Source of the DNA: an uncultured Burkholderiales bacterium
Lineage (GTDB): Bacteria; Pseudomonadota; Gammaproteobacteria; Burkholderiales; Burkholderiaceae_C
Assembly (NCBI GenBank): GCA_903932865.1
Contig: CAIZHQ010000016.1
Location: 186,001 to 250,000 of the forward strand
Reading direction: 5' to 3'
DNA: 64,000 nt
The notes beneath the pieces are model-generated. The model was not told where the DNA came from. It saw only the letters and a list, made by a program, of their open reading frames with translations, and did no database searches. A program made the translations under genes and the position numbers. Each line of letters starts with the position of its first letter. The first letter of the stretch is position 1. Below, one piece after another: positions 40,445 through 55,905 of the stretch.

Positions 40445-40476
40445 AATGTTCTATGAATAAGACCTGAATGTTCTAT
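40445..40476 (+). promoter_or_regulatory. Direct-repeat candidate operator before the gntR-type gene
   Basis: AATGTTCTAT occurs at 40445-40454 and again at 40467-40476, a spacing of 22 bases or two helical turns. It lies just upstream of the regulator that heads the catabolic operon, so it could be its autoregulatory site. No biochemical evidence is available. Confidence 0.45.
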
Positions 40477-40502
40477 TGACAGGACAATGGGACTGTTCCA
40501 CC

Positions 40503-41315
40503 ATGGTGGTCATGGATGCCCATCTGCCTTTGCCCAAATACCACCAGGTTTATCTGGTGCTGCGTGAGCAATTGCGCGAAGGCCGTTTTGACCTCGGTTT
40601 GCCGGGTGAGTTGGCCTTGATGGGGCAGTTCGGTGTGGCGCGTGTCACGGTGCGTCGAGCCTTGTCGCAGTTGGCCGAAGAGGGTTTGATTCAGCGCGAG
40701 CCCGGGCGTGGCACTCGGCCGGTGACGGCACGTGCGCAAGAGGTGCAGATGCAGGCTTCGACCATGGCCACAGGCCAGCAAGCGCGCTTGACGGGGTTGC
40801 TTGAAAACTTGGTCACCATGGGCATGCGCACCAAGGTCAAGGTGCTGAGCGTGGAACACATGCGTGCGCCTGTGGATGTGGCGGCTGCCTTGAAGTTGCC
40901 CGCCAAGACCATGGTTCAAAAAGCCGAACGCGTGCGCAGCACCCCTGAAGGTCCTTTGTCGCACATCACCACCTGGGTGCCTGATGCGATTTCTTCAGGG
41001 TTTGGCAAGCGCGAATTGGCGCAAAAACCCATTTTGGTGCTGCTCGAAGAATCGGGTGTCAAAGTGGGCCGGGCCGAGCAAACCATCTCGGCCCGTTTGG
41101 CCGATGTGGGCATGGCCCAGCACCTGGATGTTTCTGTCGGATCGGCCTTGCTGGCGGTGCGGCGTTTGATTTATGACGAGGACGAACGTCCCGTCCAATG
41201 GCTGCATGGCTTGTACCGACCGGACCGGTACGAATACCAGATGCAGTTATCCCGCGTTGGCAGCATCGATGCCAAGGTGTGGGTAAGCCAAGAGCTGTCC
41301 GCCAACTTTCATTAA
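40503..41315 (+). CDS. GntR-family transcriptional regulator with UTRA ligand domain
   Basis: About 270 residues from ATG 40503. The winged-helix DNA-binding part comes first (PKYHQVYLVLREQLREG, then FGVARVTVRRALSQLAEEGLIQREPGRGT), followed by a UTRA effector domain ending in QWLHGLYRPDRYEYQMQLSR. Regulators of the HutC subfamily sense small catabolic ligands. It lies 18 bases before the ABC receptor gene, so it is probably co-transcribed with and controls that operon. ATG 40512 is an alternative start; TTG 40476 would be an upstream one. Confidence 0.88.
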   Translation: MVVMDAHLPLPKYHQVYLVLREQLREGRFDLGLPGELALMGQFGVARVTVRRALSQLAEEGLIQREPGRGTRPVTARAQEVQMQASTMATGQQARLTGLLENLVTMGMRTKVKVLSVEHMRAPVDVAAALKLPAKTMVQKAERVRSTPEGPLSHITTWVPDAISSGFGKRELAQKPILVLLEESGVKVGRAEQTISARLADVGMAQHLDVSVGSALLAVRRLIYDEDERPVQWLHGLYRPDRYEYQMQLSRVGSIDAKVWVSQELSANFH

Positions 41316-41333
41316 CTTTTCAAGGATGTTCTC

Positions 41334-42536
41334 ATGACCTCACGTCGCACTTTCATGGGCCAGTCCGCTGCTGCGGCCTCGGCTCTCGCCTTTCCACTGG
41401 TGGGTGGGGCGCAGCCCAAGCCCATCAAAGTGGGTGTTTTGCACCCGGTGACGGGTGCCTTGGCTTATTCGGGCCAGCAGTGCCGCATGGGCGCCTTGAT
41501 GGCGATTGAGGACATCAACAAGGCTGGCGGCATCAAGTCGCTGGGCGGCGCCAAAATCGAAGCCATGCTGGGCGATGCGCAGTCCAGCCCGCAAGCGGGC
41601 ACGGCAGAAATCGAGAAGATGAACGAAGCCGGTGTGAGCGCCGTGGTCGGTGCCTTCGCCTCGGCCATTTGCCTGGCCACCACGCAAGCGGCTGCCAAAT
41701 ACAACTTGCCCCATGTGGTCGACGTCGGCGTGGCCGACCAGATCGTTGAGCGCGGCCTGAAAAACACCTTCCGTTTTGGCCCGGGTTACAAAAAGTGCGC
41801 CGAAGTGGCCGTCTCCAGCCTGCACGTTTTGAACACCGCCGCAGGCAAGCCCGCCCGCACGGTGATGATCGTGCACGAAGAGTCTTTGTTTGGCACCGGC
41901 ACCGCCAACCTGCTGGCCAAAGAGTTGCCCGGCTACGGCTACGAAGTCAAAGAAATCATCAAACACGCCAACCCCACACGTGACTTCAACAACATCGCGC
42001 TGCGCATCAAGCAGGTCAACCCCGACATCCTGATCCCGGCCAACTACTACAACGAATACGCCTTGTTGGTGCGCACATTGCAGCAGCAAAAAATCACACC
42101 CAAGGCCATTTACTCTGTGTTGGGCGGCGCGGCGTCAAGCTACAAATTCGTCAAGGAATTCCCCGAGGCGGCCAACGGCATCATCGACTGCAACCACTGG
42201 TTCAACCCCAAAGACAAGCGCTCGGCCGAACTGCGCAAGCGCGTGGAAGCACAAGGCCAGTTCTTCAGCTACGAAGTGTTCATGACCTACACCGCCATGA
42301 TGCTCTTGGCCGATGCGATCGAGCGCGCCAAGTCCACCGATCGCGCCGCCATCATCGATGCGCTGGCTTCGAGCAAGTTCTCGAATCACATCATGCCCTA
42401 TGGCCCCACACAGTTTGTGAACGGTCAGAACATGGGCGCGCAGCCCTTGATGACCCAAGTCTACAAAGGCGACATCAAGGTGATCGTGCCGCGCGATTAC
42501 CGTGAGATTGAACCGATTTTTCCGCTCAAGGGCTGA
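41334..42536 (+). CDS. ABC transporter substrate-binding protein (branched-chain amino acid/amide type)
   Basis: A 400-residue periplasmic binding protein. A twin-arginine start (TSRRTFMGQ) and Ala-rich segment suggest Tat export. The mature part starts KPIKVGVLHPVTGALAYSGQQ and has the LivK-like two-lobed type I fold (VSAVVGAFASAICLATTQAAAKYNLP). The HAAT family carries branched-chain amino acids, amides, urea and aromatic acids. AAGGATG precedes the start. Confidence 0.9.
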   Translation: MTSRRTFMGQSAAAASALAFPLVGGAQPKPIKVGVLHPVTGALAYSGQQCRMGALMAIEDINKAGGIKSLGGAKIEAMLGDAQSSPQAGTAEIEKMNEAGVSAVVGAFASAICLATTQAAAKYNLPHVVDVGVADQIVERGLKNTFRFGPGYKKCAEVAVSSLHVLNTAAGKPARTVMIVHEESLFGTGTANLLAKELPGYGYEVKEIIKHANPTRDFNNIALRIKQVNPDILIPANYYNEYALLVRTLQQQKITPKAIYSVLGGAASSYKFVKEFPEAANGIIDCNHWFNPKDKRSAELRKRVEAQGQFFSYEVFMTYTAMMLLADAIERAKSTDRAAIIDALASSKFSNHIMPYGPTQFVNGQNMGAQPLMTQVYKGDIKVIVPRDYREIEPIFPLKG

Positions 42537-42562
42537 CCGGTTTGTTGAACTGAAAGACCCCG

Positions 42563-43435
42563 ATGCTGGACTTCAACATCCTGTTTCCTTCAGTGCTCAA
42601 CGGCATCACCACCGGTGCCGTGTATGCATTGATTGCGCTGGGCCTCACGCTGATTTATGGCGTGCTGCACATCATCAATTTCGCGCATGGTGCGTCTTTG
42701 ATGGTGGCGCTGTATGGCGTGTACATGTTGAAACAACACTTCGGGGTCGATCCCTACATGGCCCTGCCCCTCATGGTGCCCGCCATGTTTGTGCTGGGCT
42801 ACGCGCTGCAGCGCGGCGTCATCAATCGGGCCAGCCATGGCAAGGATGAAAACATCTTGCTGGTCACGCTGGGCATCTCCATCGTGCTGGAGAACCTGGC
42901 GCTGTTGTTTTTCAAATCCGACACGCGCACCATTGAAACGGCCTACACCTTGACCACCGTCGAGATCGGCCCGGCCTTCATCGCGCTGCCCAAGCTGGTG
43001 TCTTTTGCCGGGGCTTTGGTGGTATCGGCGGTGTTGCTGCTGATCGTACAAAAAACCGACTTGGGCCGCGCGATCCGCGCCGTCTCCAAAGAGAAGCAAG
43101 GCGCACGCTTGATGGGCATCGATGTGGACCATGTGTACGCGATGTGCTTTGGCTTGGGCCTGGCCAGCCTGGGCGCTGCGGCCTGCTTTTTGATGCCGGC
43201 CTATTACGTCAACCCGCAGGTGGGCAATGGCTTTGTGCTGGTGGCCTTCACCATCGTGGTGCTGGGCGGCATGGGCAGTTTTGCGGGAGCCTTGCTCGGT
43301 GGATTGCTCATTGGTGTGGTCGAGTCGCTGGGCGGTTTGCTGCTGGGTGAGTCACTGGGCCAGGTGGGCATTTTTGTGATTTTCATTGCGGTGCTTTTGC
43401 TCAGGCCGCAAGGATTTTTAGGGGCGAAGGCATGA
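42563..43435 (+). CDS. ABC permease, LivH type
   Basis: A 290-residue membrane subunit of the HAAT importer with about eight membrane segments. GAVYALIALGLTLIYGVLHIINFAHGA at the N-terminus and VVLGGMGSFAGALLGGLLIGVVES near the end are typical. It overlaps the next permease gene by ATGA. Confidence 0.93.
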   Translation: MLDFNILFPSVLNGITTGAVYALIALGLTLIYGVLHIINFAHGASLMVALYGVYMLKQHFGVDPYMALPLMVPAMFVLGYALQRGVINRASHGKDENILLVTLGISIVLENLALLFFKSDTRTIETAYTLTTVEIGPAFIALPKLVSFAGALVVSAVLLLIVQKTDLGRAIRAVSKEKQGARLMGIDVDHVYAMCFGLGLASLGAAACFLMPAYYVNPQVGNGFVLVAFTIVVLGGMGSFAGALLGGLLIGVVESLGGLLLGESLGQVGIFVIFIAVLLLRPQGFLGAKA

Positions 43436-44409
43436 AAGACTTTCGCAACATCGCGCTGTTTGTGCTGCTGGTGGGGGCCGTGCCCTTTTTCACGCAGTCG
43501 GGCGTGATGCTCAACTTTGTCATGACGTCTTTGTATGCGTGCCTGCTTTCGCAGGCTTGGAACGTACTGGGTGGTTTTGGCGGTCAGTTTTCGTTTGGCC
43601 ATGCGTTGTTCTTTGGCACCGGCGCTTATGTGCAGGCGATTGCCCAAATGCAGTGGGGCCTGAGCCCCTGGGTGGCTTTGCCGCTGGCCATGGCTTTTGC
43701 GGCGGGTGTGGGTGCTTTTGTGGGCGCGGCCTCATTCCGCTATGGGCTCAAGGGTTCGTACTTTGCCTTGGTCACGCTGGCCTTTGCCGAGGTGTTTCGA
43801 ATTCTGGCTACCTCGGTGCCTTTCACAGGTGCGGGCGTGGGGCTGATGCTGCCGCTCAAAGAGTCGTCCGCCAACATGCAGTTTGGCAGCCGGGCCGGTT
43901 TCATCTGGCTCATGCTGGGCCTGGTCACGCTGGCGCTGTGCATCACCGCTTGGCTGCGCCACTCGCGCTTTGGCGCTTACCTGCAGGCCGTGCGTGACAA
44001 CGAAGATGCAGCCCGCGCCATCGGCGTGAATCCCTTCAGCGTCAAGCTGATCGCCACCATTTTGTCGGGTGGCTTGATGGGGGCAGCCGGGGCGTTTTAT
44101 GTGCAGGTGTTCCAGTACATCGACCCGGGCATTGCCTTTGGGGCGCACACCTCGGTCGAGGCTCTGGTGGGGGCGATTGTGGGCGGTATGGGCACGTTGT
44201 GGGGGCCGCTGCTGGGCGCCATCAGCTTGCACCTCCTGGCGGACCTCACTCGCAATTTGTTTGGTCAGTTGCCGGGCATCAACATGGTCATTTATGGCGT
44301 GGTGCTGATCGTCATCGTGATGTTCTTGCCGCGTGGCATCGCGGGACTGGGCACCATCACGCCGCTGCAGTGGTTGCGCGGCCAAAAGTCTGACGGATAT
44401 AAATCATGA
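43432..44409 (+). CDS. ABC permease, LivM type
   Basis: A 325-residue second membrane subunit of the importer. Recognisable parts are LSQAWNVLGGFGGQFSFGHALFFGTGAY, the EAA-like loop DNEDAARAIGVNPFSVKLIA and AIVGGMGTLWGPLLGA. ATGA overlaps on both sides tie it to its neighbours. Confidence 0.93.
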   Translation: MKDFRNIALFVLLVGAVPFFTQSGVMLNFVMTSLYACLLSQAWNVLGGFGGQFSFGHALFFGTGAYVQAIAQMQWGLSPWVALPLAMAFAAGVGAFVGAASFRYGLKGSYFALVTLAFAEVFRILATSVPFTGAGVGLMLPLKESSANMQFGSRAGFIWLMLGLVTLALCITAWLRHSRFGAYLQAVRDNEDAARAIGVNPFSVKLIATILSGGLMGAAGAFYVQVFQYIDPGIAFGAHTSVEALVGAIVGGMGTLWGPLLGAISLHLLADLTRNLFGQLPGINMVIYGVVLIVIVMFLPRGIAGLGTITPLQWLRGQKSDGYKS

Positions 44410-45191
44410 GCACGCTGCTGCAGATCGAGGGCTTGGGCAAATCCTTTGGCGGCCTCAAGGCCGTGCAAAACGTGAGCCTGTCGGTGACCGAAGGTCGCCT
44501 GAGCGCTTTGATTGGGCCGAATGGCGCGGGCAAGACCACTCTGTTTGCGCTCATGTCGGGCTTTTTGACGCCGGACACGGGCCGTGTGGTGTTTGCAGGC
44601 CAGGACATCACGGGCCAGCCGCCCCATCTGAACGCTCGGATGGGCCTGACGCGCACTTTCCAGATCGTGCAGCCTTTTGCGGCGCAAACGGTGCGCGAAA
44701 ACATCGCGGTGGGTGCGCACCTCCATTTGCCGCGCCGCAAGCAGGCGCTTGAATTTGCCGAGTCGGTGGCCAGCCAAGTGGGCCTGAGCCCGCAGCTGGA
44801 CAAGCTGGCCAGCGACCTGACGGTGGCAGGCCGCAAGCGCCTGGAGCTGGCCCGTGCACTGGCCACGCGGCCGCGTCTGCTGCTGCTCGACGAGGTGCTG
44901 GCGGGCCTGAACCCGCAAGAAATTGCCGAGATGATCCCGGTGGTGCAGGGCATTGCCCAAAGCGGCGTGACGGTGCTGATGATCGAGCACGTCATGCAAG
45001 CGGTGATGAGCCTGGCGCAAGAGGTGTGGGTGCTGGCCCAAGGGCAGCTGATTGCCCAAGGGACACCCGCTGAAGTGACCCACAACAAAGCCGTGGTTGA
45101 GGCTTATCTGGGCCACGGCACGGCCGAGCGTTTGCAAAAAAACGCGGCCCAAGCCAAAACGGCTCAATTGGCGCAGGAGGTTCGGGCATGA
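44406..45191 (+). CDS. ABC ATP-binding protein, LivG type
   Basis: A 261-residue ATPase. Walker A is GPNGAGKTT (about 37-45), Walker B is LLLLDEVLAGLNPQE, and the switch His is in MIEHVM. The signature stretch reads LTVAGRKRLELA instead of LSGGQ, which is common in LivG relatives. It pairs with the LivF-type subunit. Confidence 0.93.
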   Translation: MSTLLQIEGLGKSFGGLKAVQNVSLSVTEGRLSALIGPNGAGKTTLFALMSGFLTPDTGRVVFAGQDITGQPPHLNARMGLTRTFQIVQPFAAQTVRENIAVGAHLHLPRRKQALEFAESVASQVGLSPQLDKLASDLTVAGRKRLELARALATRPRLLLLDEVLAGLNPQEIAEMIPVVQGIAQSGVTVLMIEHVMQAVMSLAQEVWVLAQGQLIAQGTPAEVTHNKAVVEAYLGHGTAERLQKNAAQAKTAQLAQEVRA

Positions 45192-45898
45192 GCGCTTTGT
45201 TGAACGTGCAGGGCCTCAAATCCGGCTACGGCGTGGTCGAGGTCTTGCGCGGTGTGGACCTGCAGGTCATGCCCGGAGAGTTGGTGGCGCTCTTGGGCAG
45301 CAACGGCGCAGGCAAGACCACGCTCAACCTGACGCTCAGTGGTCTGGTGGCCGCGCGTGGGGGCCAAGTGGGGTTTGATGGCCAAGACATCACCGGTCTG
45401 CATTCGCGCCAGGTGGTCAAGCATGGTTTGATACAGGTGCCCGAAGGCCGCAAGGTGTTCCCGAACCTCAGCGTTCACGAGAACCTGGAGTTGGGGGCCT
45501 TCACACGGGGGCGCGAGCGCAAGCTGCAAAACCTGGACAAGGTCTATGAAACCTTTCCGCGATTGAAGGAGCGCGTGGCGCAGTTGGCAGGCACTCTGAG
45601 TGGCGGCGAGCAGCAGATGCTGGCGATTGGTAGGGGCCTGATGGCTGAGCCACGCTTGTTGATTCTGGACGAGCCCTCGCTGGGTTTGTCCCCGCTGTTG
45701 GTGGAAGAGTTGTTCGGCCTGATCTCTCAGCTGCGCCGCAGTGGTCTGGCGATCTTGCTGGTGGAGCAAAACGTGGGTCAGTCTCTGGACATCGCCGACC
45801 GTGCGTACGTGATGGAAAACGGCGAGATCCGTTTCACCGGCACACCGGCCCAGTTGTTGGCCAGTGACGCGCTCAGGCAAGCCTATTTGGGCATGTGA
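45188..45898 (+). CDS. ABC ATP-binding protein, LivF type
   Basis: A 236-residue ATPase, the second ATPase of the importer. It has Walker A GSNGAGKTT, signature LSGGEQQMLAIGR, Walker B LLILDEPSLGLSP and the switch His-loop region VEQNVGQ (Gln-Asn as usual for LivF). Sixty-eight bases separate it from the Bug gene, the largest gap within the unit. Confidence 0.93.
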   Translation: MSALLNVQGLKSGYGVVEVLRGVDLQVMPGELVALLGSNGAGKTTLNLTLSGLVAARGGQVGFDGQDITGLHSRQVVKHGLIQVPEGRKVFPNLSVHENLELGAFTRGRERKLQNLDKVYETFPRLKERVAQLAGTLSGGEQQMLAIGRGLMAEPRLLILDEPSLGLSPLLVEELFGLISQLRRSGLAILLVEQNVGQSLDIADRAYVMENGEIRFTGTPAQLLASDALRQAYLGM

Positions 45899-45966
45899 AG
45901 CTGGTCGACAGTGTTGGCCCTGAGCCGAAGCCAGCCGATTGAATTTTTGACACGGAAGACTGCCGC

Positions 45967-46959
45967 ATGACACACACACAAACCTCGCACCACCCCACAA
46001 CGACACGCCGCGCCGTGGTGTTGGGCACGGTCTTGGCCTGTACCGCTTTGGCCAGTGGGGTACAAGCCCAAACTCAGCAGCCTATCAAGATTTTGGTTGG
46101 GGCCCCCGCAGGGGGCACTACCGACACCATGGCCCGAACGCTGGCCACGGTGCTGGGCACACAGCTGGGCCGCACGGTGGTGGTCGAGAACAAACCCGGC
46201 GCGGGCGGCAACCTGGCTGCTGACGCGGTCGCCAAGGCCGCGCCCGATGGCAACACCCTGCTCATGAGCTTCACCAGCCATGCCATCAACGCTTCGCTCT
46301 ACCCCAGTTTGCCTTTTGACCCGGTGAAAGACTTCACGCCGCTGACCATGGTGTCCACTTCGCCATCGATTTTGGTGGCCCACCCCAAGCTGCCCGCCAA
46401 CAACGCGGCCGAGCTGGTCAAGCTGGCCAAAGCCAAGCCCGGACAGCTGAACTTCGCCATTGGTGCGCTGGGTTCATCGCTGCACATGGCGGGTGATGCG
46501 TTCAAGATGCAAGCAGGCGTGTTCATTGTCAACATCCCTTACCGGGGCACGGCCCCTGCGGTGCAAGACGTGCTGGCCGGTCAGGTGGACCTGATGTTCG
46601 CCGCGGTGGGCAATGTGCAGTCGCACATCAAGGCGGGCAAGCTCAAGGCCTTGGGGGTGACCAGCGCCAAGCGTTTGGCGGCTTTCCCGGATGTGCCCGC
46701 GATTGGCGAGAGCTTGCCGGGTTATGAGTCCAGTGCCTGGTTTGGTCTGTTTGGCCCAGCGCGCATGAGCCCTGAATTGACCAAACGCCTGGCAGATGCA
46801 GCCCGAGCCGCCGTGCAATCGACTGAGGTCAAGCGCCGCATCGAAAACGAAGGGGCCACGCCTGTGGGCAACAGCCCGGAAGAATTCGCCCGCTTTGTCG
46901 ACAGCGAGATCGTGCGCTGGCGCAAGGTGGTGCAGTACGCCGGAGCCAAACCAGAATGA
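45967..46959 (+). CDS. Bug-family periplasmic solute receptor
   Basis: A 330-residue receptor with a signal peptide of about 35 residues (TTTRRAVVLGTVLACTALAS, cleaved near VQAQ) and the family motifs KILVGAPAGGTTDTMART and NKPGAGGNLAADAVAKAAPDG. A double Arg suggests possible Tat export. It lies inside an operon with an ABC importer and overlaps the hydro-lyase gene by ATGA, so it probably binds the same substrate or a carboxylate intermediate. No TctA/TctB pair is nearby. Confidence 0.9.
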   Translation: MTHTQTSHHPTTTRRAVVLGTVLACTALASGVQAQTQQPIKILVGAPAGGTTDTMARTLATVLGTQLGRTVVVENKPGAGGNLAADAVAKAAPDGNTLLMSFTSHAINASLYPSLPFDPVKDFTPLTMVSTSPSILVAHPKLPANNAAELVKLAKAKPGQLNFAIGALGSSLHMAGDAFKMQAGVFIVNIPYRGTAPAVQDVLAGQVDLMFAAVGNVQSHIKAGKLKALGVTSAKRLAAFPDVPAIGESLPGYESSAWFGLFGPARMSPELTKRLADAARAAVQSTEVKRRIENEGATPVGNSPEEFARFVDSEIVRWRKVVQYAGAKPE

Positions 46960-48236
46960 GCGCCGCTGTTTCGCAAACCCTGGCGCAAAAACTCATCGCC
47001 CGTGCTGCGGGCCGCGCCCATGTGGCCGTGGGCGAGGTGGTCACCTGCAACGTCGACCTGGCCATGTTCCATGACTCGTCGGGGCCACGCCGCTTGAAGC
47101 CCATGCTCGACGAACTGGGCGCTGAGATTTGGGACAAAAACAAAGTGGTGCTGGTGCTGGACCACTATGTGCCCGCACAAGACGCGGACGCGCAGCAGAT
47201 CGTGCAGATCGCACGCGACACGGCCAAACAATGGAAGCTGCCGCATGTGATCGACAGCGAAGGCATCTGCCATGTGGTGCTGCCTGAGCGCGGCCATTTG
47301 AAGCCCGGCATGTTTTGTGTGGGCGGCGACTCGCATTCGCCCACGGGCGGGGCGTTTGGCTGCTACATGTTCGGCATCGGTGCCACCGAAATGTTGGGCG
47401 TGTGCGTCACCGGCCAGATTTGGGTGCAGGTACCGCGCACCTTGCGCATGCATTGGTCTGGCCGGCTGCAAAAGGGCGTCTCGGCCAAGGACATGATGCT
47501 GCACATGGTCGGGCGCTTTGGCATGAACGGCGGTCAATACCAGGCGGTGGAATTTGCCGGACCTGCGGTGCAGGCGCTGAACATGGCTGAGCGCATGACC
47601 TTGTCCAACATGAGCGCCGAGATGGGTGCGCAGGCGGGCCTGATCTCTGCTGACGAGACCACTTTGAAATACTTGCGGGCTGCGGGTGTGGACCCGGCGC
47701 ATTTGGTCGGCGCCGAGCAGTGGCACACCGATGAAGACGCTGAGTTTGAACAGCACGGCTTTGACGCGAGCACGCTCAGCCCGCAAGTGGCCGCGCCGCA
47801 CAGCCCGGCCAACACCCGGGACGTGGCGGATTTTTCCGACATCCAAACCGACATCGCGTACATCGGAGCTTGCACCGGGGCCAAGCTGGAAGACCTGCGC
47901 GCCGCCGCGTCGGTGCTCAAAGGCCAGCGCGTGGCTGCTGGGGTGCAGCTCATGGTGGCCCCGGCCAGTGCCCGCGAGCAAGCCCAGGCCACGCAAGAAG
48001 GCGTGATGCAAATCCTGCTGGACGCTGGGGCCACCCTGCTGCCCAACAGCTGTGGCGCGTGTGCGGGTTACGGTGCGACGTTCCCAGAGGGCTCCACCGT
48101 GATTTCGACCACCGCCCGTAACTTCAAAGGACGCATGGGCCCGGCCAGTGTGAACGTGTATTTGGCCTCGCCCTACACCGTGGCGGCTTCGGCCTTGCGC
48201 GGACGCATCAGCGATGCACGCGAGGTGTTGGCATGA
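46956..48236 (+). CDS. Aconitase-family hydro-lyase, large subunit (LeuC/HacA/DmdA-like)
   Basis: A 426-residue [4Fe-4S] dehydratase subunit. The cluster ligands are Cys306 (IGACTGAK), Cys366 and Cys369 (NSCGACAGYG); DSHSPTGGAFGCYMFGIGATEM and ISTTARNFKGRMG are typical. It is shorter than house-keeping LeuC (about 470) and belongs to the compact branch that includes homoaconitase, maleate or citraconate hydratase and dimethylmaleate hydratase. GSCTNGR of isopropylmalate isomerase reads GACTGAK here, arguing for another substrate. In context it probably hydrates an unsaturated dicarboxylate. Confidence 0.85.
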   Translation: MSAAVSQTLAQKLIARAAGRAHVAVGEVVTCNVDLAMFHDSSGPRRLKPMLDELGAEIWDKNKVVLVLDHYVPAQDADAQQIVQIARDTAKQWKLPHVIDSEGICHVVLPERGHLKPGMFCVGGDSHSPTGGAFGCYMFGIGATEMLGVCVTGQIWVQVPRTLRMHWSGRLQKGVSAKDMMLHMVGRFGMNGGQYQAVEFAGPAVQALNMAERMTLSNMSAEMGAQAGLISADETTLKYLRAAGVDPAHLVGAEQWHTDEDAEFEQHGFDASTLSPQVAAPHSPANTRDVADFSDIQTDIAYIGACTGAKLEDLRAAASVLKGQRVAAGVQLMVAPASAREQAQATQEGVMQILLDAGATLLPNSCGACAGYGATFPEGSTVISTTARNFKGRMGPASVNVYLASPYTVAASALRGRISDAREVLA

Positions 48237-48736: not shown

Positions 48737-50448
48737 ACCCGATGGTTTCAGTTTCTCAAACACACGCTGCCCTGGAACCGGTGATGAACCCGGTCATGGA
48801 CCCGGTGACTTTGGCCGTGCTGCGCGGCCGACTCGAACAAATCGCCGACGAGATGGACGCGACGCTGTACCGCAGCGCCTTCAACCCCATCATTGCCGAG
48901 GCACACGACGCTTGCCACGGCCTGTACGACGCCATCACCGGCGACACCCTGATCCAGGGCAAGTCGGGTCTGCCCGTTTTTGTGGGAGCCATGGCCTTTG
49001 CCGTGCGGGCGGCCATGCGTGTGGCGGCTGAGCGCGGCGGCATGCAGCCGGGTGATGTGTGGTTGTTCAACGACCCTTACGAAGGCGGCACGCACGCCAA
49101 CGATTTCAAGCTGGTCAAGCCCTGCTTTCGGAACGGCCAGCTGTATTGCTTTTTGGCATCGGCTGCGCACTGGCACGACGTGGGCGGTGCGGTGCCCGGC
49201 AACTACAACCCGGCGGCGACCGAGTGCTGGCAAGAAGCGGTGCAGATTCCACCGGTGCGCATCTTGCGCGGCGGTGTGCTGGGTGACGATGTGCTGGCCA
49301 TCTTGCGGGCCAACACACGCCTGCCCGACAGCCTCTGGGGCGACCTGAATGGCCAGTTGGCCGCGCTCGAATTGGGTGCGCGCCGCTTGGACGGCCTGCT
49401 CGACGAATACGGCGACGCCAAAGTGGCCCAAGCCTTGGTGGAGCTGCGCACACGCGCCGTGCGCCTGATGCGCTCGCACATTGGCAGCTTGCCCGATGGC
49501 CGCTTCAGCTTTGAAGACGTGCTCGACAACGATGGCGTGAAAGACGAGTTGCTGACCATCGCGCTCGACATGACCGTGGCCGGTGACCGGTTGACGCTGG
49601 ACTTCTCACGCACCTCGGCGCAGTGCGCCGGGCCTGTGAACATCTCACGCGCCACGGCGGTGGCTGCTTGTTATGTGGCCTTGAAGCATGTGTTCCCCGA
49701 TGTGCCTGCCAACGCGGGCGTGCTCGATGCGGTGGACTTCATCATCCCCGATGGTTTGGTCATCAGTGCCTCGCGTCCGCGTCCGGTGGGTGGCTACACC
49801 GAAACGATTCTGCGCATGATCGACGTGGTCTTCAGCGCCACCGCGCTGGCCGATCCGCAGCGGGCCGTGGCCCATGCTTACGGCACCATCAACGCCTTGT
49901 CGATCGCTGGGCATCGCACCGACGACAAACGCAAAGGCCAACGTTGGGTGATGTTCAGTTTCTTCGGTGGCGGGCACGGTGGCCATTCGGATGGTGATGG
50001 CCTCTCACACGGCAACGCGCCGATTTCGACCGCCACCATTCCCCCAATGGAAATTCTCGAAGCAGCTTACCCGGTGCGCTTCACCCAGTGGGCCTTGCGC
50101 CCCGGCTCGGGCGGCGACGGCCAGCACCGGGGCGGCTTGGGCGCGATTTATGAGATCGAGTTGCTCGAAGACAGCGCTGAGGCTTTCATTTTTGGCGAGC
50201 GCGGCAAGTCGGCCCCTAAGGGCATTCATGGTGGCCAGCCTGCGCTGCCCAATGTGTTCGAGTATTGCCAAAACGGCGAATGGAAAACACCACCCATGGT
50301 CTCCAAGATGCTCGGCATCCAATTGAAGAAGGGCGACCGGGTGCGCCTGCAAACACCCGGCGGTGGCGGCTGGGGCAACCCGGCAGACCGGTCAGAACAA
50401 GACCGCGCCAAGGACATCGCACTCGGTTACACCAAGGAACAAGCATGA
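48733..50448 (+). CDS. HyuB-type ATP-dependent hydantoinase/oxoprolinase subunit B
   Basis: A 571-residue hydantoinase-B-domain protein. It has DPVTLAVLRGRLEQIADEMDATLYRSAFNPIIAEAHDACHGL near the N-terminus, NDPYEGGTHANDFKLV, and C-terminal GSGGDGQHRGGLGAIYEIE and TPGGGGWGNP. With HyuA it forms enzymes that open hydantoin, N-methylhydantoin or 5-oxoproline rings with ATP; related pairs carboxylate ketones. ATG 48733 overlaps the previous stop (ATGA), so longer upstream frames are rejected. Confidence 0.93.
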   Translation: MNPMVSVSQTHAALEPVMNPVMDPVTLAVLRGRLEQIADEMDATLYRSAFNPIIAEAHDACHGLYDAITGDTLIQGKSGLPVFVGAMAFAVRAAMRVAAERGGMQPGDVWLFNDPYEGGTHANDFKLVKPCFRNGQLYCFLASAAHWHDVGGAVPGNYNPAATECWQEAVQIPPVRILRGGVLGDDVLAILRANTRLPDSLWGDLNGQLAALELGARRLDGLLDEYGDAKVAQALVELRTRAVRLMRSHIGSLPDGRFSFEDVLDNDGVKDELLTIALDMTVAGDRLTLDFSRTSAQCAGPVNISRATAVAACYVALKHVFPDVPANAGVLDAVDFIIPDGLVISASRPRPVGGYTETILRMIDVVFSATALADPQRAVAHAYGTINALSIAGHRTDDKRKGQRWVMFSFFGGGHGGHSDGDGLSHGNAPISTATIPPMEILEAAYPVRFTQWALRPGSGGDGQHRGGLGAIYEIELLEDSAEAFIFGERGKSAPKGIHGGQPALPNVFEYCQNGEWKTPPMVSKMLGIQLKKGDRVRLQTPGGGGWGNPADRSEQDRAKDIALGYTKEQA

Positions 50449-52517
50449 GCGAGCAGTCTGTGAATCAGCCGCATTGGGTGGTGGGCGTGGACGTGGGCGG
50501 GACCTTCACCGACCTGTTTGTGTTGGACGAAAAAACCGGCCAGGCCCGCATCGTGAAAGTGCCCTCGACCCGGGGTGAAGAAGCCCGAGGCTTCATGAAC
50601 GGCATCGCCAAAGTGACCGGGGCCACGGGTGCCGAGGGTGCCAAAGACATCGCCACCATCGTGCATGGCACCACCGTGGGCACCAACGCTTTGCTCGAAC
50701 GCAAGATCGCCCGCACCGGCATCATCACCACACGCGGCTTTCGCGATGTGCTGGAGATGCGCCGCCGTGACCGCCCGCAAACCTGGGGTCTGCGCGGCAG
50801 TTACACGCCAGTGGTCCCGCGCGCTTGGCGTCTGGAAGTGGACGAGCGCGTGCTGGCCGATGGCCAGTTGCATACACCCGTGAATTTGGAACAGGTGCGC
50901 GAGCAAGCCCGCGCTTTGCTGGCCGAAGGCTGCGAGGCCGTGTGCGTGTTCTTTGTGCACGCTTATGCCAACCCTGGCAACGAACAGGCCGCTGTGGCTG
51001 CTGTGCGCGAAATCTGGCCCAACAGCTATGTGACGGCGGCCAGCGAAGTGCTGCCCGAAATCCGCGAGTTCGAGCGCTGCTCCACGGCGACCCTGAATGC
51101 GGCTTTGCAGCCCGTGGTGGGCGGCTATTTGCAGCGGCTCGACGGCGATTTGCGTGCCCAGGGTTTTGGGGGTGAATTGCTGATTGTGCAAAGCAATGGC
51201 GGCGTGATGTCGCGCCAGACCGCTTGCGATGTGCCGGTGCGCACCGCGCTGTCAGGCCCCGCGGCGGGCGTGATGGCTTGCGCCGAGATTGCGCGTGCCT
51301 CGGGCTTTGAAAACGTCATCACCGGCGACATCGGCGGCACATCGTTTGACGTCTCGCTGGTGGCCGGTGGTGAAGCGGCCCTCGCCGCCCAAACATCCAT
51401 CGAATTTGGATTGGTGGTGCGCTCGCCCATGATCCAGATCGAGACCATTGGGGCCGGGGGCGGCTCGATCGCTTCGGTCGATGCGGGCGGCATGCTGCAA
51501 GTGGGCCCCGAGTCGGCCGGCAGCATTCCCGGCCCGGCCTGCTATGGGCGAGGCAACACCCGTCCTACCTTGACCGACGCCAACGTGCTGCTGGGCCGCA
51601 TCGCGGCCGACCGGCCTTTGGGCGGTGGCTTGTTGCAGGCGCTGAACTCGGACTTGTCCAAGCAGGCCATCACCCAGCATGTGGCTGAGCCTTTGGGTTT
51701 GACAGCTTTGGCTGCAGCCGAAGCGATCTTGACCGTGGCCAACGCCCGCATGGCTGGAGCCATTCGTGTGGTGTCCATTGAGCGTGGCCACGATCCGCGC
51801 CAGTTTGCCTACATGCCGTTTGGCGGCGGCGGCGGCCTGCATGTGTGCGCCATGATGCGCGAGGTGGGCGTGACCACCGGCATCGTGCCGCGTTACCCGG
51901 GTGTCACTTCGGCGCTGGGTTGCGTGATGGCCGATATGCGCCATGACGCGGTGCAGACCCTGAACGTGGCTTTGGCCGATGTGGCTTGGCCTGCTTTGCT
52001 GCAACGCTTGGACACATTGGCCGAGGCTTGCCAGGTGCGCCTCGATTCCGCCGGTGTGAACTTTGTGCGCGTGGACGAAGTCATCAGCTTTGACATGCTC
52101 TACATGGGCCAGACCCACACGTTGCAAGTGCCCGTCAAGCGTGAAGCTTTGAATGCCACCGGTTTGCTGGCGTCGTTTGAGGCCGCTTACCAGCACGCCT
52201 TTGGCCGCGTGCTGCAAGGTCCGGTGATCCGCGTGATGAATCTGCGCTATGCCCGCATCGGGCGGCGTCCCAAGTTTGACTTGGCGGTATTGGCCCCACA
52301 AGGCGAAGGCCGCACCACCTCGGTGGGCGAGCAGCAGGTTTACCACCAGGGCCAGTGGTGGACGGCTCAGCGTTACGAGCGCTTGAGCTTGCCCGTGGGC
52401 ACGGTGGTGCAGGGCCCGGCGATTTTGGAGCAACCCGACACCACGGTGTGGTTAGAGCCCGGTTTTGAAGGCCGGGTGGACAAATTGGGCAACTTGTTGG
52501 TGGAGCGCACAGCATGA
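50445..52517 (+). CDS. HyuA-type ATP-dependent hydantoinase/oxoprolinase subunit A
   Basis: A 690-residue ATP-binding subunit. The N-terminal VVGVDVGGTFTDLFVLDE is the phosphate-1 motif of the sugar-kinase/Hsp70-like ATPase fold; IVHGTTVGTNALLERK, SLSGPAAG-type (TALSGPAAGVMACAEIA), DIGGTSFDVSLV and ERGHDPRQFAYMPFGGGGGLH follow. It starts at ATG 50445 overlapping hyuB. The class (hydantoinase, oxoprolinase or carboxylase) cannot be chosen from the sequence by eye. Confidence 0.93.
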   Translation: MSEQSVNQPHWVVGVDVGGTFTDLFVLDEKTGQARIVKVPSTRGEEARGFMNGIAKVTGATGAEGAKDIATIVHGTTVGTNALLERKIARTGIITTRGFRDVLEMRRRDRPQTWGLRGSYTPVVPRAWRLEVDERVLADGQLHTPVNLEQVREQARALLAEGCEAVCVFFVHAYANPGNEQAAVAAVREIWPNSYVTAASEVLPEIREFERCSTATLNAALQPVVGGYLQRLDGDLRAQGFGGELLIVQSNGGVMSRQTACDVPVRTALSGPAAGVMACAEIARASGFENVITGDIGGTSFDVSLVAGGEAALAAQTSIEFGLVVRSPMIQIETIGAGGGSIASVDAGGMLQVGPESAGSIPGPACYGRGNTRPTLTDANVLLGRIAADRPLGGGLLQALNSDLSKQAITQHVAEPLGLTALAAAEAILTVANARMAGAIRVVSIERGHDPRQFAYMPFGGGGGLHVCAMMREVGVTTGIVPRYPGVTSALGCVMADMRHDAVQTLNVALADVAWPALLQRLDTLAEACQVRLDSAGVNFVRVDEVISFDMLYMGQTHTLQVPVKREALNATGLLASFEAAYQHAFGRVLQGPVIRVMNLRYARIGRRPKFDLAVLAPQGEGRTTSVGEQQVYHQGQWWTAQRYERLSLPVGTVVQGPAILEQPDTTVWLEPGFEGRVDKLGNLLVERTA

Positions 52518-53116
52518 ACTTGAAGAACGCGAAATTGGGCATGGTCATTGTCGACCTGCAAAACGATTTTCTGGCCTCTGACGGGGCTTATGCACGGGGC
52601 AACACCCTGAGTGCCGAAGCGGTGAAGCTGCCTGAGCGCATGGCCCCGGTGGCACGCGCCATCAAGGGGCGAGGCGGCCTGGTCACGGCCAGCCTGTTCA
52701 CCCTGTGGCCCGACGCGCAGGGAGAGCCGATGATCTCTGCGCACCTCAAAGAGCGTCGCCCGTTTTTGCGCAAAGGCGACTTTGCACCCGGCAGCCGAGG
52801 CCAGGCCAATGTGGACTTGCTCGCACCGCTGGTCGATGTGTCGGTGTTCAAGGTGGCGTATTCGGCCTTCTTCAACACCCAACTCGATTGGGTGCTCAAA
52901 AAATCAGGCATTGACACGCTGGTGGTCTGCGGCATTGTCACCAACGGCGGTGTGGCCAGCACGGTGCGCGATGCCCATGTGCGTGATTACCACGCCATCG
53001 TGTTGTCGGACGGTTGCGCCGCTTTCAGCCAAGCCGCGCACCAGGCGTCCTTGGCCGATATGGCTTCTGTGGGCGAGGTGATGGACAGTGCCACATTCCT
53101 CAAGCAACTGGGCTGA
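52514..53116 (+). CDS. Isochorismatase-family hydrolase lacking the nucleophilic Cys
   Basis: A 200-residue protein. The catalytic Asp14 (MVIVDLQNDF) and Lys113 (FKVAYSAFFNTQLD) of the family are present. The nucleophile position, usually Cys in a T-x-x-C-V context, reads VTNGGV with Gly146 (codon GGT). Amidases such as N-carbamoylsarcosine amidase need this Cys, whereas isochorismatases acting on vinyl ethers (EntB, PhzD) have Gly there. Thus it may hydrolyse an ether-type bond or have another role, despite HyuAB neighbours that would suggest an amidase. Confidence 0.87.
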   Translation: MNLKNAKLGMVIVDLQNDFLASDGAYARGNTLSAEAVKLPERMAPVARAIKGRGGLVTASLFTLWPDAQGEPMISAHLKERRPFLRKGDFAPGSRGQANVDLLAPLVDVSVFKVAYSAFFNTQLDWVLKKSGIDTLVVCGIVTNGGVASTVRDAHVRDYHAIVLSDGCAAFSQAAHQASLADMASVGEVMDSATFLKQLG

Positions 53117-53120
53117 AGCC

Positions 53121-54524
53121 ATGACCGCCACGCTGGCACACATTTGTCCGGCTTCTCAATTGCAGGCCGAAGACCACACACCGGTGGTGATTGTGGGCGG
53201 CGGTGCTTGTGGCCTGACGGCGGCGCTGGCCTTGCACCGCATGGGTGTGGAGTGCGTGGTGCTGGAGCGCGACGCGTTTGCTGCAGGCTCTACGGCTTTG
53301 TCTTCGGGTTTCATCCCTGCACCGTGCACACAGGCACAACAGGCGCAAGGTATCACCGACAGCGTGGAGGTGTTTGCTGCCGACATCCAGGCCAAGGCGC
53401 ACGGCTTGGCTGCGCCGCACCTGGTGCAGGCCTATGCCCAAAACATTGGTCCAGCCATGGACGCGCTGGCCCTGAACCATGGCTTACCCTGGCAAGTGCT
53501 GGACAACTTCTTGTACCCCGGCCACAGCGCCCACCGCATGCACGCCGTGCCCGAAAAAACCGGGGCTGGTTTGATGAGCCGCTTGCAAGCCGCTGCCGAC
53601 GCCGCTGGCCTGGTGGTCCTGACGCAAGCGCAAGTGACCGAGCTGTGGGCCGACGACGCGCAGCGCATCCAAGGCGTGGGCTTTGTGCGCCCTGACGGGC
53701 AAGCCGAGCGCATCCGCTGCGATGCGGTGCTGCTGGCGTGTAACGGTTTTGGCGGGGCTTCGGCCATGGTGAAAGACTTGCTGCCTGAAATGGCTGAGGC
53801 CACCTACGCCGGCCATGTGGGCAACGACGGCAGTGCGATCGTCTGGGGCCAACAGTTGGGCGCACGTTTGGCCGATTTGGGTGCGTACCAAGGCCACGGT
53901 TCATGGGCGGTGCCGCAAGGCGCTTTGATTTCTTGGGCGCTGATGATGGATGGCGGCGTGCAGATCAACGCCCAAGGCCAGCGCTTCCATGACGAAACCC
54001 AGGGTTATTCTGAAGCGGCGGTGCATGTGCTGGCACAGCCGGGCGGGGTGGCTTGGAATGTGTTCGACGATGCGCTGCTGGCGTTTGCGCAGGATTTTCC
54101 GGACTTTGTGGCGGCGCAAAGCGCAGGCGCAGTTCAGCATGCTGCAGATGCCAATGAACTGGCTCAAGTGATCGGCTGCCCGCCCGCAGCCTTGCACGCC
54201 ACTTTGAACGCGGTCCAACTCGGTCCCGACCCGGCCACGGGCCGCACGTTCCAACGCGCACTGCAAGCGCCGTTCCATGCCATCAAGGTCACTGGTGCCT
54301 TGTTCCACACCCAAGGCGGTCTGGACATCGATGCGCAGACCCGCGTCTTGCGGCAAGAGGGCACACCTTTGCCCAACCTGTTGGCCGCAGGCGGCGCAGC
54401 GCGTGGCGTGTCGGGCCAAGCGGTCTGGGGTTATTTGTCCGGCAATGGCTTGCTCAGCGCCATCGCGGGCGGGCACATTGCGGCCCACACCGCGCAACAA
54501 CTTTTGAAGGAGACGGCACCATGA
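53121..54524 (+). CDS. FAD-dependent oxidoreductase (fumarate reductase/ketosteroid dehydrogenase-like)
   Basis: A 467-residue flavoprotein of the FAD_binding_2 family. The dinucleotide motif VVIVGGGACGLTAALALHRMG is at 22-42, with Glu of VVLERD following. The C-terminal TQGGLDIDAQTRVL and NLLAAGGAARGVSG segments close the FAD site. Family enzymes add or remove hydrogens across an activated C-C bond. ATG 53121 is chosen, four bases after the previous stop; frames upstream overlap it. The role in the pathway is probably desaturation or reduction of the ring or dicarboxylate. Confidence 0.85.
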   Translation: MTATLAHICPASQLQAEDHTPVVIVGGGACGLTAALALHRMGVECVVLERDAFAAGSTALSSGFIPAPCTQAQQAQGITDSVEVFAADIQAKAHGLAAPHLVQAYAQNIGPAMDALALNHGLPWQVLDNFLYPGHSAHRMHAVPEKTGAGLMSRLQAAADAAGLVVLTQAQVTELWADDAQRIQGVGFVRPDGQAERIRCDAVLLACNGFGGASAMVKDLLPEMAEATYAGHVGNDGSAIVWGQQLGARLADLGAYQGHGSWAVPQGALISWALMMDGGVQINAQGQRFHDETQGYSEAAVHVLAQPGGVAWNVFDDALLAFAQDFPDFVAAQSAGAVQHAADANELAQVIGCPPAALHATLNAVQLGPDPATGRTFQRALQAPFHAIKVTGALFHTQGGLDIDAQTRVLRQEGTPLPNLLAAGGAARGVSGQAVWGYLSGNGLLSAIAGGHIAAHTAQQLLKETAP

Positions 54525-55417
54525 GCCAGCCCCACACTTTGGCCCAATGCTTTTTGGCCCAGCGCTTGCAACAGCCTCAGGCCCTGTTGGCCCCCGGCGT
54601 CTACGACGCCCTCACTGCGCTGGTGGCGCAGCAGGCCGGATTCGAAGCGCTTTACTTGTCAGGTGCATCGATTGCCTACACCCGCCTGGGACGCTCAGAC
54701 ATCGGCCTGACGACGGCCACCGAAGTGGCGCAGACCCTGGCCCACATCACCGACCGGGTGAACATTCCCGTGATCGTGGATGCAGACACCGGTTTTGGCA
54801 ATGCGCTCAACACCCAGCGCACCGTGCGCGACTTCGAGCGCGCCGGAGCCGCGATGATCCAGATCGAAGACCAGACTTTCCCCAAGCGCTGCGGCCATTT
54901 GGACGGCAAGGGTGTGGTGCCGGTGGCCGAGATGCAAGGCAAGCTGCGTGCCGCCTTGGATGCCCGACACGACAAAAATACGCTGATCCTGGCGCGCACG
55001 GATGCAGTGGCCGTCGAAGGACTGGAAGCCGCCCTGGAGCGGGCCGAGCGCTACCTGGAATGCGGTGTGGATGCCTTGTTCATCGAAGCCCTGCGCTCGG
55101 ACGAGCAGATGAACCGCGCCTGCGCGCAGTTCGCCAAGCGTGTGCCACTGCTGGCCAACATGGTCGAAGGTGGCAAAACGCCGGTGCAAAGTGCGGCCGA
55201 GTTGGGCGAGCGGGGCTTCAAGATCGTGATCTTCCCTGGCGGAACGGCGCGGGCAGTGCTGCACACGCTGCAAGGCTATTACGCCAGCTTGCACACGCAC
55301 CAGACGACGCGGCCTTGGCAAGAAAAGATGCTGGATTTTGATGGCCTGAACGCGGCGATTGAAACACCGCAATTGTTGGCACTGGGACAACGTTATGAAA
55401 GTCGTGAAAAGTCATGA
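54521..55417 (+). CDS. Isocitrate lyase/PEP mutase-family C-C lyase
   Basis: A 298-residue TIM-barrel enzyme. Metal-binding VDADTG (Asp87, Asp89) and the catalytic-loop motif KRCGH (122-126, with Cys124) are both present; the Cys marks lyases such as 2-methylisocitrate lyase and 2,3-dimethylmalate lyase rather than oxaloacetate hydrolases or mutases. It overlaps both neighbours by ATGA. With the hydro-lyase upstream it fits a hydratase-then-lyase sequence yielding pyruvate or another oxoacid plus a carboxylic acid (inference). Confidence 0.88.
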   Translation: MSQPHTLAQCFLAQRLQQPQALLAPGVYDALTALVAQQAGFEALYLSGASIAYTRLGRSDIGLTTATEVAQTLAHITDRVNIPVIVDADTGFGNALNTQRTVRDFERAGAAMIQIEDQTFPKRCGHLDGKGVVPVAEMQGKLRAALDARHDKNTLILARTDAVAVEGLEAALERAERYLECGVDALFIEALRSDEQMNRACAQFAKRVPLLANMVEGGKTPVQSAAELGERGFKIVIFPGGTARAVLHTLQGYYASLHTHQTTRPWQEKMLDFDGLNAAIETPQLLALGQRYESREKS

Positions 55418-55905
55418 CGCAGAGCCTTGTTTTGCGCGGCCTGCGAGTGGGTGACATTGGCTGGGTGGCGCATCGGCAAGGCATTTTGTATGCGCAGGAA
55501 TACGGCTGGGATGTCACCTTTGAGGCATTGGTCGCCGAAATCGCCGCGCAATACGTCAAACATCTGGACCCTGAAAAAGAAAATGCTTGGATCGCCGAGT
55601 GCGGGGGGCGTGTGGTGGGTTCGGCGTTTGTGGTCAAGGTCTCAGAAACCGAGGCCAAGTTGCGCTTGCTTTATGTGGAGCCCGAGATGCGCGGCACCGG
55701 CCTGGGACGGCGCTTGACTCAGGAATGCATCGCTTTTGCAAAAGACAGGGGCTACCAGACACTGAGTTTGTGGACCAACGATATCCTGCACGCGGCCAAA
55801 CACATCTACCAAACCGCCGGTTTTGTGTTGTTGTCCGAAGAGCCCCACCATTCGTTTGGATACGATCTGGTGGGCCAGTATTGGGCGCTGGACTTGCGGC
55901 ATTAG
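55414..55905 (+). CDS. GNAT-family N-acetyltransferase
   Basis: A 163-residue acyltransferase-like protein. The acetyl-CoA loop is RGTGLG within LYVEPEMRGTGLGRRLTQECI, followed by LSLWTNDILHAAKHIYQTAGF. The C-terminal part resembles GNAT domains found fused to MarR regulators. It ends the operon, overlapping the lyase gene by ATGA. The substrate is unknown. Confidence 0.88.
   Translation: MTQSLVLRGLRVGDIGWVAHRQGILYAQEYGWDVTFEALVAEIAAQYVKHLDPEKENAWIAECGGRVVGSAFVVKVSETEAKLRLLYVEPEMRGTGLGRRLTQECIAFAKDRGYQTLSLWTNDILHAAKHIYQTAGFVLLSEEPHHSFGYDLVGQYWALDLRH

Follow-up and report, generated by a model that had tools for sequence, protein, structure and literature searches.

A conserved operon in an uncultured Burkholderiales bacterium that may degrade a cyclic imide, possibly hematinic acid

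Gene content of the operon

We analyzed a stretch of 64,000 nucleotides (here called the window) from the 3.77-Mb genome of an uncultured Burkholderiales bacterium of the lineage Burkholderiaceae_C (GenBank assembly GCA_903932865.1, contig CAIZHQ010000016.1, positions 186,001 to 250,000). On its plus strand, at positions 40503 to 55905, lie 15 open reading frames (ORFs), all in frame, that encode a regulator, a five-gene ABC importer, a Bug-type binding protein, a LeuCD-like hydro-lyase, HyuB and HyuA, an isochorismatase-like protein (iso), a flavoprotein (fad), an isocitrate lyase-family protein (icl, called the lyase below) and an acetyltransferase (Table 1). Ten neighboring pairs (livH/livM, livM/livG, livG/livF, bug/leuC, leuC/leuD, leuD/hyuB, hyuB/hyuA, hyuA/iso, fad/icl, and icl/gnat) share a 4-base overlap of a TGA stop with an ATG start, a pattern that suggests translational coupling. 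The operon is real and, as described below, conserved, and it is probably a dedicated catabolic unit.

A preliminary description of this DNA, made from the sequence alone, had reported fifteen genes on one strand with ten ATGA overlaps, and we recovered all of them. Its family calls agree with the NCBIfam and Pfam models; the names LivH, LivM, LivG, LivF, and Bug were assigned by reading. Two small corrections concern gene starts: ATG 40503 or 40512 is a more likely start of gntR than TTG 40476, and the start of fad is probably at 53121, so that 4 bases separate it from iso. A promoter-operator was added upstream of gntR.

Table 1 Features of the operon and its promoter region in the window
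Feature	Position	Strand	Basis or remark
Probable promoter-operator, palindromic, TGTTCTATTGACAGGACAATGGGAC, with -35 box TTGACA inside	40469..40493	+	Upstream of gntR
GntR/UTRA regulator (gntR), start 40503 or 40512	40503..41315	+	Pfam GntR and UTRA
LivK-type ABC substrate-binding protein	41334..42536	+	Pfam Peripla_BP_6
LivH-type permease	42563..43435	+	By reading; kept in 39/42 long loci
LivM-type permease, 4-base overlap	43432..44409	+	By reading; conserved
LivG-type ATPase, 4-base overlap	44406..45191	+	By reading; conserved
LivF-type ATPase, 4-base overlap	45188..45898	+	By reading; conserved
Bug/TctC-type binding protein, 68-base gap upstream	45967..46959	+	By reading, no NCBIfam match; in 51/80 loci
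LeuC-like hydro-lyase large subunit, homoaconitase family	46956..48236	+	NCBIfam PRK00402, hacA_fam, IPMI_arch
LeuD-like hydro-lyase small subunit	48233..48736	+	TIGR02087 "LeuD/DmdB family"
HyuB/CapB-like subunit	48733..50448	+	Pfam Hydantoinase_B; four metal ligands aligned
HyuA/CapA-like ATP-using subunit	50445..52517	+	Pfam Hydantoinase_A and N/C domains; solved relatives 7hk5_A, 6yra_A
Isochorismatase-like protein (iso) without nucleophilic Cys (Gly146)	52514..53116	+	Pfam, alignments, structure model
FAD_binding_2 flavoprotein (fad), Tyr at flavocytochrome c Arg position	53121..54524	+	Models and alignment
Isocitrate lyase-family C-C lyase (icl), KRCGH and NMVEGG	54521..55417	+	Models, alignments, tree
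GNAT acetyltransferase (gnat)	55414..55905	+	Pfam; not conserved with operon

Conservation across relatives

A scan of genome contigs with LeuC yielded 307 relatives, of which the best 80 loci were retained; among these, the closest named loci belonged to Limnohabitans. Many of the 80 are short contigs, and the 42 that span at least 21.2 kb were taken as long loci. The preliminary description had suggested looking for the same gene order in other genomes, and it proved to be conserved, with all seven enzyme genes present in 38 of the 42 long loci (53 of 80 overall) and gntR plus the five ABC genes in 36 of the 42. The exceptions to the seven-enzyme set among long loci were L029 and L071, which have only leuC, leuD, and icl, L065, without hyuAB and iso, and L067, without fad. 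Two distant loci of the same phylum (L154 and L155) carry the same thirteen genes with the enzymes arranged as leuC-leuD-icl-hyuB-hyuA-iso-fad, and a third (L157), cut by the contig end, reads leuD-icl-hyuB-hyuA-iso-fad. The GNAT gene, counted as an operon member in the preliminary description, was found in only 15 of the 80 loci (12 of the long ones), and we rejected it as part of the pathway.

At the order level, LeuC matched (E ≤ 1e-120) in 20 of 399 genomes and 15 of 158 genera. The lyase (E ≤ 1e-95) is present in 4 genomes out of 369 at the level of the class and in 15 out of 398 at that of the phylum; like the count for LeuC, both figures include the genome of the window.

A reduced version, bug-leuC-leuD-icl, which lacks hyuAB, iso, and fad as well as the regulator and the ABC importer, occurs in L029 and L030, the former keeping the neighbor genes of the window on both flanks. 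These bacteria probably use the free acid as such.

Hydro-lyase, C-C lyase, and flavoenzyme

LeuC scored below the cut-offs of all leucine-type models (PRK05478, 294.4 versus 510; TIGR00170, 249.6 versus 560.25; LEU2, 362.4 versus 610.65) and above those of the broad family of homoaconitases and archaeal-type isopropylmalate isomerases (PRK00402, 517.7 versus 385; hacA_fam, 421.3 versus 385.7; IPMI_arch, 418.9 versus 410.15). It fell short of the methanogen HacA equivalog (388.3 versus 550), and its best solved relatives are the isopropylmalate/citramalate isomerase and the homoaconitase of Methanocaldococcus jannaschii. A separate canonical leuC-leuD, 33% identical and adjoined by leuB (by reading), exists elsewhere in the genome. 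On these scores and this second gene pair, a role in leucine biosynthesis was rejected. LeuD exceeded the cut-off of the "LeuD/DmdB family" model TIGR02087 (143.4 versus 108.95), which is broad and not specific for DmdB. Its residue K30, kept in 100 of 101 relatives, aligns with an Arg of the small subunit of the M. jannaschii homoaconitase and with a Val of the isopropylmalate isomerase of that species. We dropped Lys30 as proof of a third carboxylate in the substrate, as another LeuD of the genome has Lys and distant members vary. The genome also holds, on another contig, a second LeuCD pair other than the leucine one, accompanied by two Bug-like proteins (L188), and in L159, L114, and L116 an MmgE/PrpD-like protein replaces LeuCD or stands beside it.

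The lyase contains the catalytic Cys in a KRCGH motif and the acidic metal ligands, all invariant in a 21-row alignment, as expected for the lyase type of the isocitrate lyase/PEP mutase superfamily, and its NMVEGG motif is kept in relatives. It scored below the PrpB model TIGR02317 (291.8 versus 354.4). For the tree, 93 relatives were thinned by identity to 46, partly by a random rule and thus not exactly repeatably, and joined with the window protein. These 47 operon lyases form a clade of their own that contains none of the 20 paralogs and three solved relatives; across the supporting branch (99/96) lie the solved PrpB and three of the paralogs. A role in the methylcitrate cycle was rejected on the score and the tree, and the separation from methylisocitrate lyase, which the preliminary description had proposed to check in this way, was borne out. 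The top Foldseek match of the lyase model had an E value of 6.9e-24; because methylisocitrate lyases and a phosphorylmutase head its ranking, the model does not separate the candidate substrates. By sequence, the Aspergillus niger dimethylmalate lyase (3fa3) ranks only 12th of 18 among the solved relatives.

By score, the flavoenzyme does not belong with fumarate reductase or the tricarballylate dehydrogenase TcuA, as it fell below the TcuA (112.9 versus 369) and flavo_cyto_c (222.1 versus 285.45) cut-offs. In the alignment, it has Tyr at the position of an Arg of flavocytochrome c, within GYSE in the relatives examined; we take the Arg at that position of flavocytochrome c3 to be the catalytic one. 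The replacement suggests a neutral substrate, such as a saturated imide.

Two known systems resemble this combination. At the end of nicotinate fermentation in Eubacterium barkeri, DmdAB and dimethylmalate lyase likewise pair a LeuCD-type hydratase acting on a disubstituted maleate with a Cys-containing isocitrate lyase-family lyase to give pyruvate and a carboxylate, a comparison made at the level of families. There the diacid arises from nicotinate by rearrangement, while in the window operon its source seems to be an imide whose ring HyuAB or one of its substitutes opens. The methylcitrate cycle (AcnD or PrpD, then PrpB) also has a hydratase and a lyase acting on a branched tricarboxylate, and AcnD and PrpD are interchangeable in it, a parallel to the MmgE/PrpD proteins of L159, L114, and L116. 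Unlike that cycle, the window operon has no citrate synthase, and its lyase belongs to a separate clade.

Interchangeable ring-opening modules

Five states of the ring-opening part were distinguished around the hydro-lyase genes and, in most loci, the lyase gene: (a) hyuB-hyuA-iso, as in the window; (b) an allantoinase AllB-like amidohydrolase in L074, L118, L121, and L125 (219.8 bits versus a cut-off of 357.85 for L074); (c) two PuuE-like proteins of the polysaccharide deacetylase family with a Cys-bearing isochorismatase-like protein (motif STSGC) in L085, L114, L126 to L128, L161, and L162; (d) MmgE/PrpD, one weakly PuuE-like protein, SDR, DUF4387, and AtuA in L065, L066, L075, L081, and L082, and in part on the shorter contigs L077 and L069; and (e) leuC, leuD, and icl only, with a Bug or MFS transporter, in L029, L071, L112, L113, L115, L117, L119, L120, and L088 among others. 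To follow these states we used a LeuC tree in which 108 rows were thinned at 92% identity to 66 and joined with the window protein (67 rows), and whose deep parts are unsure due to long branches. At least 14 changes of state were counted on this tree, among them losses leading to (e). Opening a cyclic imide, hydantoin, or lactam is the reaction shared by the HyuAB, AllB-like, and PuuE-like families, and its probable presence in modules (a), (b), and (c) supports the core idea of the preliminary description. Even if the substrate is an imide other than hematinic acid, the swapping of three unrelated ring openers around one hydratase and lyase is a clear case of modular pathway evolution. In module (d) loci, SDR, DUF4387, and AtuA (PF07287) lie ahead of gntR-leuC-leuD-fad-icl, an arrangement that may hint at the function of AtuA and DUF4387.

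The window HyuAB resembles CapAB caprolactamase and HyuAB N-methylhydantoinase as a two-subunit ATP-dependent ring opener, in its Pfam domains and in its metal site, but it lies far below the caprolactamase equivalogs (518.0 and 273.1 against 1000 bits). In an alignment to caprolactamase 6yra_B, HyuB retains all four metal ligands named for CapB (D41, H99, D102, and H124) in its published description (PMC8453981).

Structure models of iso and the lyase (pLDDT of 83 and 81) confirmed the folds and nothing further, with the maleamate amidohydrolase NicF as the top Foldseek match of iso (E value of 7.7e-10). The iso protein shares with NicF and the ureidoacrylate hydrolase RutB the fold, Asp14, and Lys113, both residues being invariant in 20 rows, but the Asp-Lys-Cys triad is incomplete; Gly146 sits where wild-type RutB has Cys, as in YecD. 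The distant HyuAB loci (L154 to L157, L159, and L160) likewise have Gly for Cys. An ordinary maleamate or carbamoyl thiol amidase was rejected, since the Cys is missing from all 63 orthologs. Disubstituted maleamates readily shed ammonia through attack by the neighboring carboxylate, and this ease may make a Cys in iso needless. A thiol amidase-fold protein that is Cys-less in 63 of 63 relatives offers a testable mechanistic puzzle.

GcdH neighbors and the acid product

For a blind neighbor count, we grouped 1,881 called ORFs from 114 loci into clusters at 45% identity and scored these by lineage, 29 lineages being defined at 78% LeuC identity. Besides the 14 families of the operon, seven clusters recurred in at least four lineages: a first PuuE-like family (five lineages) and, in four lineages each, glutaryl-CoA dehydrogenase (GcdH), a second PuuE-like family, the Cys-type isochorismatase, the AllB-like family, a canonical LeuC type as a LeuC substitute, and an antisense ORF. 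GcdH stands beside the operon in seven loci of four lineages (L034, L038, L085, L118, L126, L127, and L128), which amounts to at least four separate changes on the LeuC tree; the L034 copy matches the solved GcdH 3gnc with an E value of 3.5e-222. The clearest arrangement is that of L085, on a conjugative plasmid of Burkholderia plantarii, in a gene island between insertion sequences. Here gntR-leuC-leuD-fad-icl-porin-ETF beta-FAD-binding protein-GcdH-CaiB run on one strand, with the FAD-binding protein, by reading, putatively ETF alpha, and the opposite strand carries a Cys-type amidase, two PuuE-like genes, and an MFS transporter. Its GcdH, which shares the island with CoA-transferase and ETF genes, is 86% identical to that of L034. 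In L126, L127, and L128, from one genus and with the same order, leuCD diverge from GcdH, a Cys-type isochorismatase, and two PuuE-like genes, and this GcdH is the sole match in its genome. These genomes have no lyase match at E ≤ 1e-50, so that the hydroxy acid would need a different use.

The recurrent GcdH and CoA-transferase neighbors suggest glutarate as the acid product of the lyase, an identification to which we give nearly an even chance. A glutarate product would make homoisocitrate or methylhomoisocitrate the substrate of the lyase, and the imide of (methyl)homoaconitate would, with the methyl group, be hematinic acid.

Proposed pathway and alternatives

Gene content, conservation, module interchange, neighbors, and operator sequence are observed, and from them we infer the reactions and the substrate. 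The imide would be taken up by the ABC importer and its ring opened by HyuAB at the expense of ATP; iso might help ammonia leave the half-amide, using the adjacent carboxylate of the substrate itself. The tyrosine-type flavoenzyme would convert a saturated, succinimide-type (chlorin-derived) form to the maleimide type. LeuCD would hydrate the disubstituted maleate to a 2-hydroxy acid, which the lyase would cleave to yield a saturated acid and a 2-oxoacid, the latter being pyruvate for a methyl-bearing substrate. This general form, from cyclic imide through disubstituted maleate to a 2-oxoacid and an acid, is our best reading and, we believe, probably correct. The preliminary description had already proposed an imide converted to a maleate-type diacid that is hydrated and split; module interchange, model scores, and the lyase tree uphold this scheme, except that iso departs from the usual thiol amidases. 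Among the recurrent families we recognized no transaminase and no further enzyme of amino acid metabolism, which favors an imide, since this leaves a plain diacid after opening and deamidation. Degradation of succinimide and maleimide by imidases also runs from imide through half-amide to diacid but stops at maleate, fumarate, or malate, with no C-C lyase, unlike the window operon.

That the operon imports and degrades a five-membered imide with two carbon side chains, most likely hematinic acid and its dihydro form, we consider somewhat less than an even chance. Few pigments are produced and broken down each year in amounts as large as those of the tetrapyrroles, and hematinic acid, the maleimide with a methyl and a propionate group, is an oxidative ring fragment of heme, chlorophyll, and bilins. 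One study (PMC7318184) cites the occurrence of hematinic acid and maleimides in leaves and lake sediments, and its own leaf analysis found hematinic acid and no maleimides. The maleimides from tetrapyrroles that the preliminary description had offered as speculative candidates remain the best ones, with a change of side chain, as the GcdH neighbors point to propionate (hematinic acid) and not to dimethyl or ethyl. Hematinic acid itself is a tentative substrate, and equally tentative is a so far undescribed pathway in which hematinic and dihydrohematinic acids would yield pyruvate, glutarate, and ammonia, with methylhomoaconitate and methylhomoisocitrate as intermediates. The carbon balance would be C8H9NO4 + 3 H2O = NH3 + pyruvate + glutarate. 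Among the best 15 of 3,020 open-licence literature matches, no bacterial gene set using hematinic acid or alkylmaleimides was found, which is weak evidence, and no open-licence paper pairing "hematinic acid" with "glutar" was found either. If true, the pathway would provide a marker gene set for the use of tetrapyrrole fragments in freshwater carbon and nitrogen cycling and explain why Limnohabitans and related lake bacteria have conserved this operon.

Several observations weigh against this assignment. GcdH was chosen by the analyst before the blind count, and the chance of its recurrence (1e-5 for 29 lineages, 4e-4 for 75 loci) was computed afterwards, assuming random placement. GcdH and leuC lie no more than 10 kb apart in only 4 of the 20 leuC-positive genomes, from 2 of 15 genera. 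Three of the four, G069, G189, and G220, belong to a single genus and lack any lyase match at E ≤ 1e-50, and in the genome of the window the sole GcdH match is on another contig than the operon. A lyase ortholog of at least 60% identity is absent from 7 of the 20 leuC-positive genomes, so some distant LeuC matches may serve another purpose. The flavoenzyme is missing from L067 and L084, and Gly replaces the nucleophilic Cys of iso in 63 of 63 orthologs. Residue 30 of LeuD is His in L154 and L155 and Ser in L156, and Lys there is not diagnostic because the other LeuD of the same genome carries it too. In the lyase, Val and Gly stand in place of Thr and Phe of solved methylisocitrate lyases (NMVEGG versus TEFG), so that no residue shows room for a third carboxylate. 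Read from residues alone, the side chain of the substrate is left unfixed.

The same pathway might instead act on an alkyl-only imide, chiefly 2-ethyl-3-methylmaleimide (or dimethyl- or methylmaleimide), to give pyruvate and butyrate (or propionate or acetate) for activation by an acyl-CoA ligase, a version that we regard as unlikely. Directly upstream of the operon on the same strand (38713 to 40284) is a fatty acyl-CoA synthetase gene (PRK08316, 782.4 bits versus a cut-off of 663), which may serve to activate a product or be unrelated. Orthologs of this ligase occur at 25 of 80 loci; it would go well with a monocarboxylic product, a point that also weighs against glutarate. The EGG motif of the lyase is presumably found as well in oxaloacetate hydrolases and in the petal death protein of plants, whose preferred substrate is 2-ethyl-3-methylmalate, and the isopropylmalate/citramalate isomerase of M. 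jannaschii is the best solved LeuC relative. In the blind count, however, the ligase was not among the families found in at least three lineages, whereas GcdH recurred in four. A broad-range pathway taking both hematinic-type and alkyl imides is possible.

Another alternative is a hydantoin or dihydropyrimidine pathway, in which HyuAB, AllB-like, or PuuE-like enzymes would produce an N-carbamoyl amino acid for hydrolysis and oxidation. All three ring openers come from hydantoinase or allantoinase families, L058 has an Asp/Glu/hydantoin racemase beside the operon, and the STSGC motif of the Cys-bearing partner in PuuE-type loci resembles that of N-carbamoylsarcosine amidase. Yet the partner in HyuAB loci is without Cys in 63 of 63 orthologs, the racemase occurs in 1 of 80 loci, and no carbamoylase, aminotransferase, or amino acid dehydrogenase was recognized among families in at least three lineages. 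An amino acid, moreover, is not known as a substrate for LeuCD and an isocitrate lyase-like enzyme. We find this pathway improbable. Least probable by our estimate is an aconitic acid imide (of the citrazinate type, from isonicotinate) or similar compound, leading through cis-aconitate or methylaconitate and (methyl)isocitrate to glyoxylate or pyruvate plus succinate. The LeuCD and lyase families would fit it, as would the MmgE/PrpD protein with the gene set in L159, L114, and L116, in a parallel to the methylcitrate cycle. It would leave the GcdH neighbors unexplained, the genome has other aconitase-family proteins, no hydroxylase for a pyridine route was recognized among the recurrent families, and no open-licence paper on citrazinate gene clusters was found.

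Promoter-operator and regulation

The element upstream of gntR is probably a promoter with a putative GntR autoregulation site. Its full form, TGTYCTATTGACAGRACAATRGRAC, is an inverted repeat enclosing the -35 box, and ATTGACAG was present in all 51 upstream regions compared, namely that of the window and those of 50 loci whose gntR reaches 65% identity or more. With up to three mismatches allowed, the genome of the window contains a single site, at 40469 to 40493, and no second one; chance alone would give none in the window. Of the best 80 loci, 49 have an operator-like site, including 47 of the 49 whose gntR reaches this identity; of 191 locus records, some of which are overlapping copies, 55 have one. 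As the operator occurs once in the genome, GntR seems dedicated to one transcription unit. The start codon lies very close behind the promoter, and the message may therefore be leaderless.

Additional observations on neighboring genes and records

In four loci of one LeuC-tree clade (L054, L061, L063, and L073; three lineages), a ferrochelatase gene (by reading) lies just downstream of the lyase gene, followed by a HAD-type gene, and L163 has heme synthesis-like genes near the lyase gene. This adjacency would fit a tetrapyrrole substrate, but it may be chance synteny. Two records titled Akkermansia and Singulisphaera (L027 and L077) have LeuC proteins 88% and 72% identical to that of the window in Comamonadaceae-like operons and are probably mislabelled or contaminated bins.

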